NCBI GenBank assembly: GCA_002722565.1 | Contig: PBMG01000007.1 | Location: forward strand, 106,423 to 170,422 | DNA: 64,000 bases | DNA from: Acidimicrobiaceae bacterium | GTDB taxonomy: Bacteria; Actinomycetota; Acidimicrobiia; Acidimicrobiales; Poriferisodalaceae | Direction of reading: 5' to 3' | Shown: positions 30,588 through 45,065 of the stretch, piece after piece | Numbering within the stretch: position 1 is the stretch's first letter | Layout of the letters: each line of letters begins with the position of its first letter | The notes under the pieces: generated by a model | Database searches by the model: none | Told to the model about the DNA's origin: nothing | Seen by the model: only the letters and a program-made list of their open reading frames with translations | Position numbers and translations under genes: made by a program

Positions 30588-30644
30588 GTGCGATCTAATA
30601 AGGACCGGACCAGCGTTAGCCGCTTTCTCGTAGTATCAACGTAA
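30588..30644 (+). CDS. Putative ilvBNC leader peptide
   Basis: Eighteen codons from GTG to TAA read MRSNKDRTSVSRFLVVST. The Phe-Leu-Val-Val-Ser-Thr end places Leu and two Val codons (CTC GTA GTA, 30627-30635) at the 5' arm of a downstream hairpin. This is the layout of transcription attenuators, and it resembles the ilvBNC leader of Corynebacterium, which also ends with consecutive Val codons after Arg-Leu. There is no ribosome site, but the predicted transcript start is the GTG itself (leaderless). A longer in-frame reading from a GTG at 30531 is possible. Confidence 0.5.
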   Translation: MRSNKDRTSVSRFLVVST

Positions 30645-30657
30645 GCGGGTACTACGA
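30628..30657 (+). promoter_or_regulatory. Leader hairpin overlapping the Leu-Val-Val codons
   Basis: TCGTAGTA (30628-30635) pairs perfectly with TACTACGA (30650-30657) across a 14-base loop. The 5' arm is made of the CTC-GTA-GTA control codons. A competing smaller stem (CGGG 30646-30649 with CCCG 30659-30662) would use bases of the same region, so translation of the leader can shift the fold. This matches a pause or 1:2 hairpin in an attenuator. Confidence 0.5.
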
Positions 30658-30668
30658 TCCCGTTTGTT

Positions 30669-30697
30669 AATGGTCCCCTAGGGGACCATTTGCGTTT
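30669..30697 (+). terminator. ilvBNC attenuator terminator hairpin
   Basis: A perfect 22-base palindrome at 30669-30690 (AATGGTCCCC and its complement) forms a strong stem and is followed by TGCGTTT, a weak T-rich tract. It lies 24 bases after the leader peptide stop and 63 bases before the ilvB start. It is most simply the attenuator terminator. The short T-tract is a reason for caution. Confidence 0.5.
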
Positions 30698-42238: not shown

Positions 42239-42267
42239 TTGACGCGGCGGCTTAAGTTGCGGACAAT
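42239..42267 (+). promoter_or_regulatory. Putative leuB-cimA promoter
   Basis: TTGACG (42239-42244, five of six to consensus) and GACAAT (42262-42267, four of six) are exactly 17 bases apart. The start site expected seven to eight bases later falls on the GTG at 42275 that opens the Ile-rich leader peptide. It is the clearest promoter in the window and is back to back with the greA promoter. Confidence 0.6.
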
Positions 42268-42274
42268 AGAGGTC

Positions 42275-42310
42275 GTGAGGGCAAACCTGACCGCCATCAT
42301 TATTATTTAG
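42275..42310 (+). CDS. Putative isoleucine-rich leader peptide of leuB-cimA
   Basis: Eleven codons and a stop: GTG AGG GCA AAC CTG ACC GCC ATC ATT ATT ATT TAG, giving MRANLTAIIII. Four consecutive isoleucine codons at the end, directly before a strong hairpin, are the hallmark of amino-acid attenuation. No ribosome site is present, but the promoter predicts that the mRNA begins at this GTG. Isoleucine control makes sense because cimA, the second gene, commits pyruvate to isoleucine. Confidence 0.65.
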   Translation: MRANLTAIIII

Positions 42311-42311
42311 T

Positions 42312-42336
42312 AGCGCACACGTTTAACGTGTGCGCT
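42312..42336 (+). promoter_or_regulatory. Leader hairpin next to the Ile codons
   Basis: AGCGCACACG (42312-42321) pairs perfectly with CGTGTGCGCT (42327-42336) over a five-base loop. It begins two bases after the leader stop codon, so a ribosome held on the Ile codons would mask its 5' arm. It has only CTTGTT after it, so it is more likely a control hairpin than the terminator. Confidence 0.6.
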
Positions 42337-42340
42337 TGTT

Positions 42341-42370
42341 GACCGTCCCCTGGGGGCGGTCTTTGGCTTT
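42341..42370 (+). terminator. leuB-cimA attenuator terminator
   Basis: GACCGTCCC (42341-42349) pairs with GGGGCGGTC (42353-42361) with one G-T wobble and a three-base loop, then TTTGGCTTT. It lies about 60 bases before the leuB ribosome site. The leader bases GACCGCC (42289-42295) are complementary to GGCGGTC (42355-42361) in the 3' arm, offering an alternative fold; which fold is used in which condition cannot be settled by eye. Confidence 0.6.
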
Positions 42371-42432
42371 ATTAGGCCTCCAATAGGCCTGCGCTACAAC
42401 CTGTGGCTAGAAACTGAACTAGGAGAAGTTAA

Positions 42433-43422
42433 GTGCCTCATAAGATTGCAGTCATCGGAGGAGACGGCATCGGGCCCGAAGTGATCTCGGTAGCGCTTGA
42501 TGTCATGAGAGCAGCGGGCGCAAAGCTCGACACGACAGAATTCCGATTGGGAGGGTTCCGATACCTCGAAGACGGCGTTGTACTCCCTGACGAAGTGCTT
42601 GACGAGTTGCGCGCATATGACGCGATCTTGCTGGGGGCCGTGGGCACTCCTGAAGTGCCGCCGGGAGTCATCGAACGAGGGCTTCTTTTAAAAGCACGCT
42701 TTGAACTTGACCTCTACGTTAATTTGAGGCCGTTTGTTCTGCCTAACGGCCACGAATTCGTGGTTATTAGAGAAAACACAGAAGGAACTTACGCCGGGGA
42801 GGGCGGCTTCCTGCGTAAAGGAACCCCTCACGAAATCGCCACGCAAGGGTCGGTAAACACCCGAAAAGGGGCTGAGCGGTGTATTCGTTACGGGTTTGAG
42901 TTAGCGCGAAGCCGGCAACGAAAGCATCTCACGCTTGTGCATAAAACAAACGTTCTAACATTTTCGGGGGATCTATGGGAGCGGACATTTGAGGAGGTAG
43001 CAGCGGAATACCCAGATGTTGAAACCGCCTACAACCACGTTGATGCGGCCTGTATCTATTTTGTTGAAGACCCCACACGCTATGAAGTTGTGGTTACTGA
43101 CAACCTATTTGGAGATATCTTGACCGATCTCGGTGGCGCAGTCGCCGGTGGAATAGGGCTGGCATCTTCAGCCAACCTCAATCCCGACCGATCGGCACCA
43201 TCGCTTTTCGAACCTGTGCATGGTTCGGCTCCAGATATTGCAGGTCAAGGACTAGCAAACCCGACAGCAGCTGTGTTGTCTGGGGCAATGATGCTCGATT
43301 TTTTGGGTGATACCGAAACAGCTCAAAGTGTCCGAGCGGCTTGTGAAGGAATTCCAAGCTCTGGAACTACAGAGGAGATTGCGGCTGCAATTCTCGAGAA
43401 TGTTTCTCGGGTGGTTCAATGA
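42433..43422 (+). CDS. leuB: 3-isopropylmalate dehydrogenase
   Basis: Oxidative decarboxylase with the isocitrate-dehydrogenase fold, 329 residues. Seen are [47 protein letters not shown], the metal-binding [15 protein letters not shown] and [16 protein letters not shown]. LeuB acts on 3-isopropylmalate for leucine and on the methylmalate of the citramalate route for isoleucine. GTG start with AGGAGA at 42421-42426. Its stop overlaps the cimA start (ATGA), and an Ile-rich leader precedes it, so an isoleucine role is likely here. Confidence 0.94.
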
Positions 43423-45065
43423 GCGACGATGACCAGCAGCCTTCATTAGACCGTCAAGGTGTTCGGGACTCCGCTTGGCCAGAGATGGTCGAGATTTTTG
43501 ATACGACGTTGCGTGACGGAGTTCAGTTTGAAGGGATATCGGTTTCTTCCGACGACAAACTAAAGGTGGCTCGCCAACTTGACTATCTTGGCGTTCATTG
43601 GATTGAAGGCGGCTGGCCGGGTTCTAATCCCAAAGATGAGGAATTTTTTAAACGCGCTGCTGACGAGCTAGAACTCAAGTCCTCTCAACTCGTAGCTTTC
43701 GGCTCAACACGCCGCCCTAAAGGTCGAGTAGATGAAGACCAAACATTGTCTTCTCTCGTGGAAGCCGGAACTTCTACCGTTTGCATAGTCGGCAAATCCT
43801 GGGATTATCACGTTACTGAAGCCTTGCGGCAACCCTTGGATGAAGGTGTCGCAATGGTTGGTGATTCAGTCCAGTTTCTGAAAGCAGAAGGTCTTCGCGT
43901 TTTCTTCGATGCGGAGCACTTCTTTGATGGCTACAAGCGGAATCCCGAATTTTCTTTGAGGGTTTTGGAAGCTGCAGCTGTGCAAGGTGCTGATTGCCTA
44001 GTCCTTTGCGATACCAATGGTGGATCGTTACCCCACGAAGTAGAGAAAATTGTCGCTGATGTCGTGCGACATTTCGATGGCGTCCAGATCGGGATGCACA
44101 CCCAAAATGACACGGGTTGCGCAGTTGCCAATGCAGTTGCCGGCGTGGTCGCTGGTGCCACACACGTTCAAGGAACAATCAACGGCTATGGAGAGCGAAC
44201 CGGGAACTGCGACAACACGGTTCTTGTGCCGAATCTCAGTTTGAAGATGGGAATTGAGACTTTGCCAGAAGGTCATATAGAGAGACTGACTTCGGTGTCT
44301 CACCACGTGGCCGAATTGATGAATATGCCGCCCCAACACCAACAACCGTATGTCGGTACATCAGCATTTGCCCATAAGGCTGGTCTGCACACCAGTGCGA
44401 TTGCTCGTCGCCCTGACAGTTATGAGCATGTTGACCCTGTTGCAGTCGGGAACGGCACTAGATTTTTGTTGGGTGATTTGTCGGGCCGGGCATCAGTTGA
44501 GTTAAAAGCTGAGCAGTTGGGTATTGAAATCGAAGATCAGCAAATGGTTGAGGTCGTTGAAGAAATGAAACGGCTGGAACATGAGGGTTATCACTTCGAA
44601 GTGGCTGATGCTTCTTTGGAACTAATGATGAGGCGAGCTGCGGGCGAACAGTTCGATTATTTCAATGTGGAATCGTTTCGGGTGTTGGTTGAACGAGGTC
44701 AGGATCGACAATTCGACACTGAAGCGACGTTGCGGATAGAGGTAGACGGTGAACGGATGATCACGGTCGGTGAGGGTGATGGGCCGGTCAATGCTTTGGA
44801 TAACGCGTTCAGAAACGCTGTGATCGATATTTACCCCGAACTAGCTGAGGTGCATCTCACTGACTACAAAGTGCGCGTCCTTGATACAAACCGTGGAACT
44901 GGCGCCGTAACTCGAGTGTTGGTGGATAGCAGCGATTCAGAAGCGACATGGACGACTATTGGCGTCTCGGGAAACATTATTGAAGCTTCGTGGCTTGCTC
45001 TTCGAGATGCCTTGATTTATGCGCTCTACCGACACCGCGCGAAGATCGATAGTTCTCTAAACTGA
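43419..45065 (+). CDS. cimA: (R)-citramalate synthase
   Basis: Condenses pyruvate and acetyl-CoA to citramalate, giving a threonine-independent start for isoleucine. The 548-residue protein belongs to the long CimA family: [48 protein letters not shown] and [12 protein letters not shown], then a helical linker ([21 protein letters not shown]) and a C-terminal regulatory LeuA-like dimer domain. [13 protein letters not shown] is a strong CimA mark against LeuA. Translationally coupled to leuB. Confidence 0.92.

Follow-up and report, generated by a model that had tools for sequence, protein, structure and literature searches.

The leader region between the divergent greA and leuB genes of the window (the whole 64,000-nucleotide stretch of Acidimicrobiaceae DNA analysed here) is very probably a ribosome-mediated transcription attenuator. 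It would respond to charged isoleucyl-tRNA and regulate leuB-cimA, which serve the citramalate branch of isoleucine synthesis. Sequence comparison shows the leader frame with its isoleucine codons, both stems, the leaderless geometry and the agreement of codons with operon content; that ribosomes stall, that transcription ends early at hairpin 2 and that it reads through upon isoleucine shortage is what we infer for its operation. The region comprises the following features:

42239 to 42267, forward strand: predicted sigma-70-type promoter (TTGACG, 17 nt, GACAAT), with TTGAC and the -10 hexamer at the same place in relatives
42239 to 42244, forward strand: TTGACG, as read in the sequence
42262 to 42267, forward strand: GACAAT, as read in the sequence
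42275 to 42310, forward strand: predicted leaderless leader-peptide ORF, MRANLTAIIII and a stop, with GTG start at 42275-42277; frame, start, isoleucine run and stop are conserved
42296 to 42307, forward strand: isoleucine codons ATC ATT ATT ATT of the leader ORF, as read in the sequence
42308 to 42313, forward strand: tandem TAG TAG, with TCG TAG at the same place in relatives
42312 to 42336, forward strand: hairpin 1, adjacent to the stop, from folding and covariation
42341 to 42361, forward strand: hairpin 2, intrinsic-terminator-like, core CCGUCC/GGGCGG, from folding and covariation
42362 to 42370, forward strand: T-rich tail TTTGGCTTT of the predicted terminator; most order relatives have a longer run of Ts
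42433 to 43422, forward strand: leuB, 3-isopropylmalate dehydrogenase family (NF002898, 473.7 bits, cut-off 393)
43419 to 45065, forward strand: cimA, citramalate synthase (TIGR00977, 675.2 bits, cut-off 450)

The elements that a first-pass annotation had read from the letters alone (TTGACG and GACAAT 17 bases apart, the GTG, MRANLTAIIII, a 10-bp hairpin and a second hairpin with a T-rich tail) are all present where it placed them. The promoter is the only promoter-like site in 400 nt, for which shuffles expect 0.3, and the GTG lies 7 nt past its -10 hexamer and opens a frame of 11 codons. A TCG to TAG change produced the tandem stops of the window; the ancestral stop was probably the second TAG, which abuts hairpin 1, because relatives read TCG TAG there. 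In hairpin 1, 42313-42322 pair perfectly with 42326-42335 (10 pairs, or 11 counting A42312-U42336). Nine pairs were counted in hairpin 2, and the T tail that follows is interrupted in the window (TTTGGCTTT) and strong in order relatives. Folding of the leader RNA gave a z of -5.5, with none of 200 shuffles equally stable. A third hairpin (42373-42391, about AGGCCT..AGGCCT) lies between the terminator and leuB and recurs in the family with differing sequences. The leuB and cimA genes overlap by 4 nt and both score above NCBIfam cut-offs; a close relative (LeuB identity 93%) is titled marine actinobacterium MedAcidi-G3.

The region was matched by DNA search in all eight genomes of the genus (the window's own included) and in six further family genomes, and a covariance model gave strong matches in 19 genomes from four genera of the family. 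With few exceptions, the family peptides follow M[RK][AE]xL[TN]A(I/V)II(I)[SR] and a stop. The leaders differ by synonymous changes (ATT/ATC, TTG/CTG/TTA), by GTG or ATG as the start and by the gain or loss of one whole isoleucine codon. Across the order, 68 of 198 genomes matched the family model (E <= 0.1), and leuB, cimA or ilvB lies directly downstream in 68 of the 69 order loci fetched from model matches, the exception (L111) looking like a chance match. A recognisable leader was also found upstream of leuB in about nine of 15 order genomes with no model match. Covariance models were made of hairpin 1 only (R1) and of both stems, from alignment A2 (R2). R2 matches 84 of 148 genomes sampled from the class Acidimicrobiia, and nearly all inspected copies stand before leuB-cimA, leuB-ilvE-cimA, cimA or ilvB. 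Of 80 leuB loci selected solely on the LeuB protein, 30 carry the leader and are clearly separated from the rest by score (loci scoring under 34 were taken as leaderless).

About 50 of these 80 LeuB loci (the L151-L220 set) have no leader before leuB, many of them titled Ilumatobacter or Ilumatobacteraceae, and none precedes leuB in the sister genera g5 and g6 of the window's family; a missing leader could be loss or replacement. Outside the class, few convincing leaders were found (L239, L243 and L245 stand before ilvB). In another class of the phylum, L244 (about 1500-1570) encodes MSQNLLLT and a stop with the same hairpin-terminator layout; its downstream gene, with 27% identity to CimA, is probably of the LeuA/CimA superfamily, and its leader is a possible leucine version of the element. 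Weak phylum-level matches (L246-L250), with none of the queried branched-chain genes nearby, look like chance, as do own-genome matches weaker than the real leader. Compared with all 4227 families of Rfam release 15, the window exceeded no gathering score, the best weak match being the trpB motif RF04312 (18.1 bits against a gathering score of 59), and nine relatives gave no Rfam match at E <= 1.

On comparison, both stems are conserved and covarying. Over 57 order-wide leaders, compensatory cells number 59 in hairpin 1, against 13.8 in shuffles, and 15 in hairpin 2, against 2.0; both sides change in seven of the 10 pairs of hairpin 1 across the order. An independent tool confirmed the covariation: in alignment A2, 97.6% of cells pair and both sides have changed in 50 cells against 10.2 in shuffles, and slid controls brought the paired cells down to 34-57%. 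The core of hairpin 2, CCGUCC/GRCGG, is invariant in 56 of 56 rows, which were aligned on this motif with none lacking it, and the G.U pair is kept in 49 of the 56. The spacer between the hairpins measures 0-6 nt, mostly 2-5. Comparison confirms the leader element as real, far beyond chance, because it is conserved both in frame and in structure. The first-pass annotation had expected a conserved short frame ending in isoleucine codons, with covarying hairpins, upstream of leuB in relatives, and this was found in 19 family genomes and order- and class-wide; its reading of an isoleucine-codon attenuator before a citramalate-isoleucine operon gains support accordingly at the level of sequence.

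The position of the start codon has also been compared. In 52 of 73 leaders, 6-10 nt separate the end of a -10-like hexamer from an in-frame ATG or GTG, and no other distance between 2 and 25 nt has a count above three, so that the transcript should begin at the leader start codon. The start at GTG 42275, anticipated for the window, agrees with this order-wide geometry. Transcription from the leader start codon, with no ribosome-binding site, has likewise been reported for ilvBNC of C. glutamicum (Morbach 2000, as cited in PMC10272879).

The codon content of the leaders has been related to the genes that follow. The cimA coordinates relative to the leader distinguish two operon forms, leuB-cimA and leuB-X-cimA, and X is IlvE, a branched-chain transaminase, in the four loci where it was read. 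In the LeuB-selected set, the last sense codon but one encodes isoleucine in all 30 leaders. Valine codons are present in 20 of 20 leaders of this set with ilvE versus one of 10 with leuB-cimA (Fisher p = 7e-7, uncorrected for phylogeny), and in the last six codons of 39 of 42 model-selected leaders with X versus one of six without (p = 2e-4, also uncorrected), the two sets overlapping in part with lineages common to both and the operons without ilvE representing only a handful of independent lineages. The same contrast is found inside the window's family, where G015 has leuB-ilvE-cimA with SVVVIR and the window's genus has leuB-cimA with AIIII, and in G131 and G090 of another family. Leaders of cimA only are isoleucine-only (IIIIS, IIIIP, IIIIR and FIIIP), those of ilvB are leucine/valine, and valine accompanies ilvE; thus, leader codon content follows operon products, as expected of a ribosome-mediated attenuator. 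This match is the strongest evidence that ribosomes read the leader codons for regulation, and valine codons gained and lost together with ilvE provide a natural experiment tying leader codons to operon products. In L241 (about 1500-1570), a cimA downstream of leuB and ilvE has its own isoleucine-only leader (AIIIIS and a stop), which indicates that the element can sit inside a gene cluster.

These patterns bear on an account with no translation sensor, in which a regulator binds hairpins 1 and 2, as RNA or as DNA, and the short frame is fortuitous. Such a site would suit the near-perfect palindrome of hairpin 1 and the core of hairpin 2, conserved beyond pairing needs. However, the codon-wise indel, the synonymous changes, the near-invariant isoleucine codon, the valine codons that follow ilvE, the leucine/valine codons before ilvB and the leaderless start-codon geometry all speak against it, the conserved G.U pair (49 of 56) fits RNA better than a DNA operator, and the account is considered highly improbable.

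The window carries a second leader, before its ilvBNC genes (30588-30690), with a leaderless GTG at 30588 and a peptide MRSNKDRTSVSRFLVVST and stop (30588-30644) that ends in FLVVST. This is accompanied by a hairpin CGTAGTA/TACTACG (30629-30656) and a terminator AATGGTCCCC/GGGGACCATT (30669-30690), and the type is recognisable in 15 of 16 aligned family genomes. Its layout is unlike that of leuB-cimA, the LVV codons lying inside a hairpin arm.

Isoleucine physiology was considered through IlvA. No full-length biosynthetic-type IlvA was found in the window's genome by an IlvA model search, and IlvA-like matches there and in the genera with isoleucine-only leaders cover only the first three quarters of the biosynthetic model and fall below the cut-off. 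Biosynthetic IlvA with a C-terminal regulatory region seems to be absent from the window's genome, and the citramalate route is probably the main isoleucine route here because these matches are partial and below cut-off. Many order relatives have full-length IlvA. The best IlvA-like match of the window's genome (G000:C20:119916-120782) covers model positions 1-289 of 380.

In the proposed mechanism, transcription would begin at the GTG and the ribosome would load on the 5' end without a Shine-Dalgarno site, translating a few codons and then the isoleucine run that ends right at hairpin 1. When isoleucyl-tRNA is scarce, the ribosome would halt on the isoleucine codons; when it is ample, the ribosome would reach the TAG and its mRNA channel would accommodate the 5' arm of hairpin 1. 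This hairpin is probably ribosome-gated, and its state would determine the frequency with which RNA polymerase terminates at hairpin 2, a few nt downstream. That isoleucine shortage would lead to read-through we infer by analogy with M. tuberculosis ilvB1 and C. glutamicum ilvBNC (PMC13236596, PMC11857589).

Ribosome positions were simulated by masks, with a footprint taken to extend 13 nt beyond the first base of the A site. In silico, hairpin 1 is fully melted by a ribosome on the stop codon and roughly one half to two thirds melted by one on the penultimate codon. With the ribosome at the first isoleucine codons, hairpin 1 can still form, so the terminator 5' arm finds no upstream partner (pairing P 0.02). 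No equilibrium antiterminator was found in 88 leaders folded with ribosome masks, hairpin 2 having a mean P of about 0.98 in every masked state, and duplex tests of leader segments against both terminator arms (13 segment pairs, three groups) gave complementarity near that of shuffles, with nothing consistent. In transcripts truncated before the terminator 3' arm, the 5' arm pairs upstream with a mean P of 0.46 in the stop state versus 0.38 when shuffled. The same truncated-transcript test recovered the switch of E. coli trp as a positive control (0.62 stalled versus 0.01 at the stop).

A classical three-state attenuator is unlikely. It would require the 3' arm of hairpin 1 and the 5' arm of hairpin 2 to form an antiterminator when a ribosome at the last isoleucine codon masks the 5' arm of hairpin 1, with hairpin 1 re-forming on ribosome release to give termination. 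GUGxGCG can indeed pair with CGUxCAC in several order relatives, the isoleucine codon at -2, where a halted ribosome would begin masking hairpin 1, is nearly invariant, and the 5' arm CCGUCC of hairpin 2 is invariant with a partner that toggles between G and A, as if a second partner existed. However, this pairing, weakly recurrent in relatives, does not exceed shuffles in stability (mean z +0.44 for leuB leaders and +1.14 for the window's family), the window lacks it (its best alternative reaches -2.3 kcal/mol), and ribosomes held at the first isoleucine codons leave hairpin 1 intact.

The first-pass annotation had pointed instead to leader GACCGCC (42289-42295), whose pairing with the terminator 3' arm GGCGGTC (42355-42361) would open the terminator. 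The perfect 7-nt complement stands in the window, and leuB leaders have a slight excess of such pairing (z -0.36 +/- 0.13), but it is broken in relatives (GAACGCC in L003 and L014, TAACCGCC in L012) and its bases are the Thr-Ala codons of the leader peptide. As a switch it would also have the wrong sense, because a ribosome held on the isoleucine codons covers those bases and isoleucine shortage would favour termination of a biosynthetic operon; a switch of this kind deserves hardly any credence. Rho-dependent termination or transcript decay under the control of leader translation, with hairpin 2 only defining ends, is improbable. The missing antiterminator and the imperfect T tail of the window would suit it, and PMC13236596 cites work on how Rho and translated uORFs shape premature termination in M. 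tuberculosis, but the long T tail that follows hairpin 2 in most order relatives resembles that of an intrinsic terminator.

The most likely reading of these sequences is ribosome-gated attenuation in which hairpin 1 is the gate. Two hallmarks of an attenuator are found: comparative evidence identifies a short ORF with control codons for the pathway product, and the conserved, covarying hairpin 2 is a predicted intrinsic terminator between the leader ORF and the first gene. The trp subtype is marked by an antiterminator mutually exclusive with the terminator, and none is conserved here; hence, the element would work like an attenuator but is not classed as trp-type. Hairpin 1 may act on hairpin 2 by adjacency or pausing, or through a hidden antiterminator, which could be tertiary or purely kinetic. 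A possible, though doubtful, extension is a class-wide attenuator family that switches termination without a competing antiterminator, in which a stop-codon hairpin, opened only by a ribosome past the last control codon, would act on a terminator 0-6 nt downstream by adjacency (steric or pausing) and not by alternative pairing.

Branched-chain leader peptides before ilvB in actinobacteria are already known (PMC1262725, PMC10272879, PMC13236596). No description of a leader before leuB, leuB-ilvE-cimA or cimA, or of any in Acidimicrobiia, was found in the open-licence literature, nor was leader-peptide regulation of the citramalate pathway. The present element would assign isoleucine-specific control to that pathway across a large, mostly uncultured actinobacterial class.

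Several known systems can be compared with the leuB-cimA leader. The E. coli trp attenuator similarly has control codons in a leader peptide and a terminator; however, it has a competing antiterminator, which the same folding test did not find in leuB-cimA leaders. Actinobacterial ilvB leader peptides are also short ORFs with Ile/Val/Leu codons and terminators, with an unclear mechanism; the study that describes them (Seliverstov et al., 2005; PMC1262725) names Corynebacterium, Mycobacterium and Streptomyces, with no leuB, ilvE or cimA leaders reported in its text. Changes made to candidate control codons in the S. coelicolor ilvB leader were without effect (as cited in PMC1262725), which counts against the attenuator reading. 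If there is truly no antiterminator, the leuB-cimA leaders would pose a clean mechanistic question that could bear on this puzzling Streptomyces result.

The Corynebacterium ilvBNC attenuator, or ilvB-II motif (PMC10272879, PMC11857589), shares with the present element a leader ORF with branched-chain codons, an upstream hairpin followed by a terminator hairpin, and a branched-chain operon, besides the start without a ribosome-binding site. The ilvB-II motif is recognised upstream of ilvB by a branched-chain uORF spanning P1, with Ile/Leu/Val codons, whereas the present ORF precedes leuB-cimA, has isoleucine codons only and ends at the stop codon, where hairpin 1 begins. The antiterminator proposed in Corynebacterium overlaps the terminator by a trinucleotide, an overlap not found in the leuB-cimA leader. 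The M. tuberculosis ilvB1NC leader (PMC13236596) differs in gene and codons (LVVI) and in an anti-terminator mutually exclusive with the terminator, but it likewise combines a leader ORF, a stop-codon ribosome proposed to mask a downstream structure and a Rho-independent terminator.
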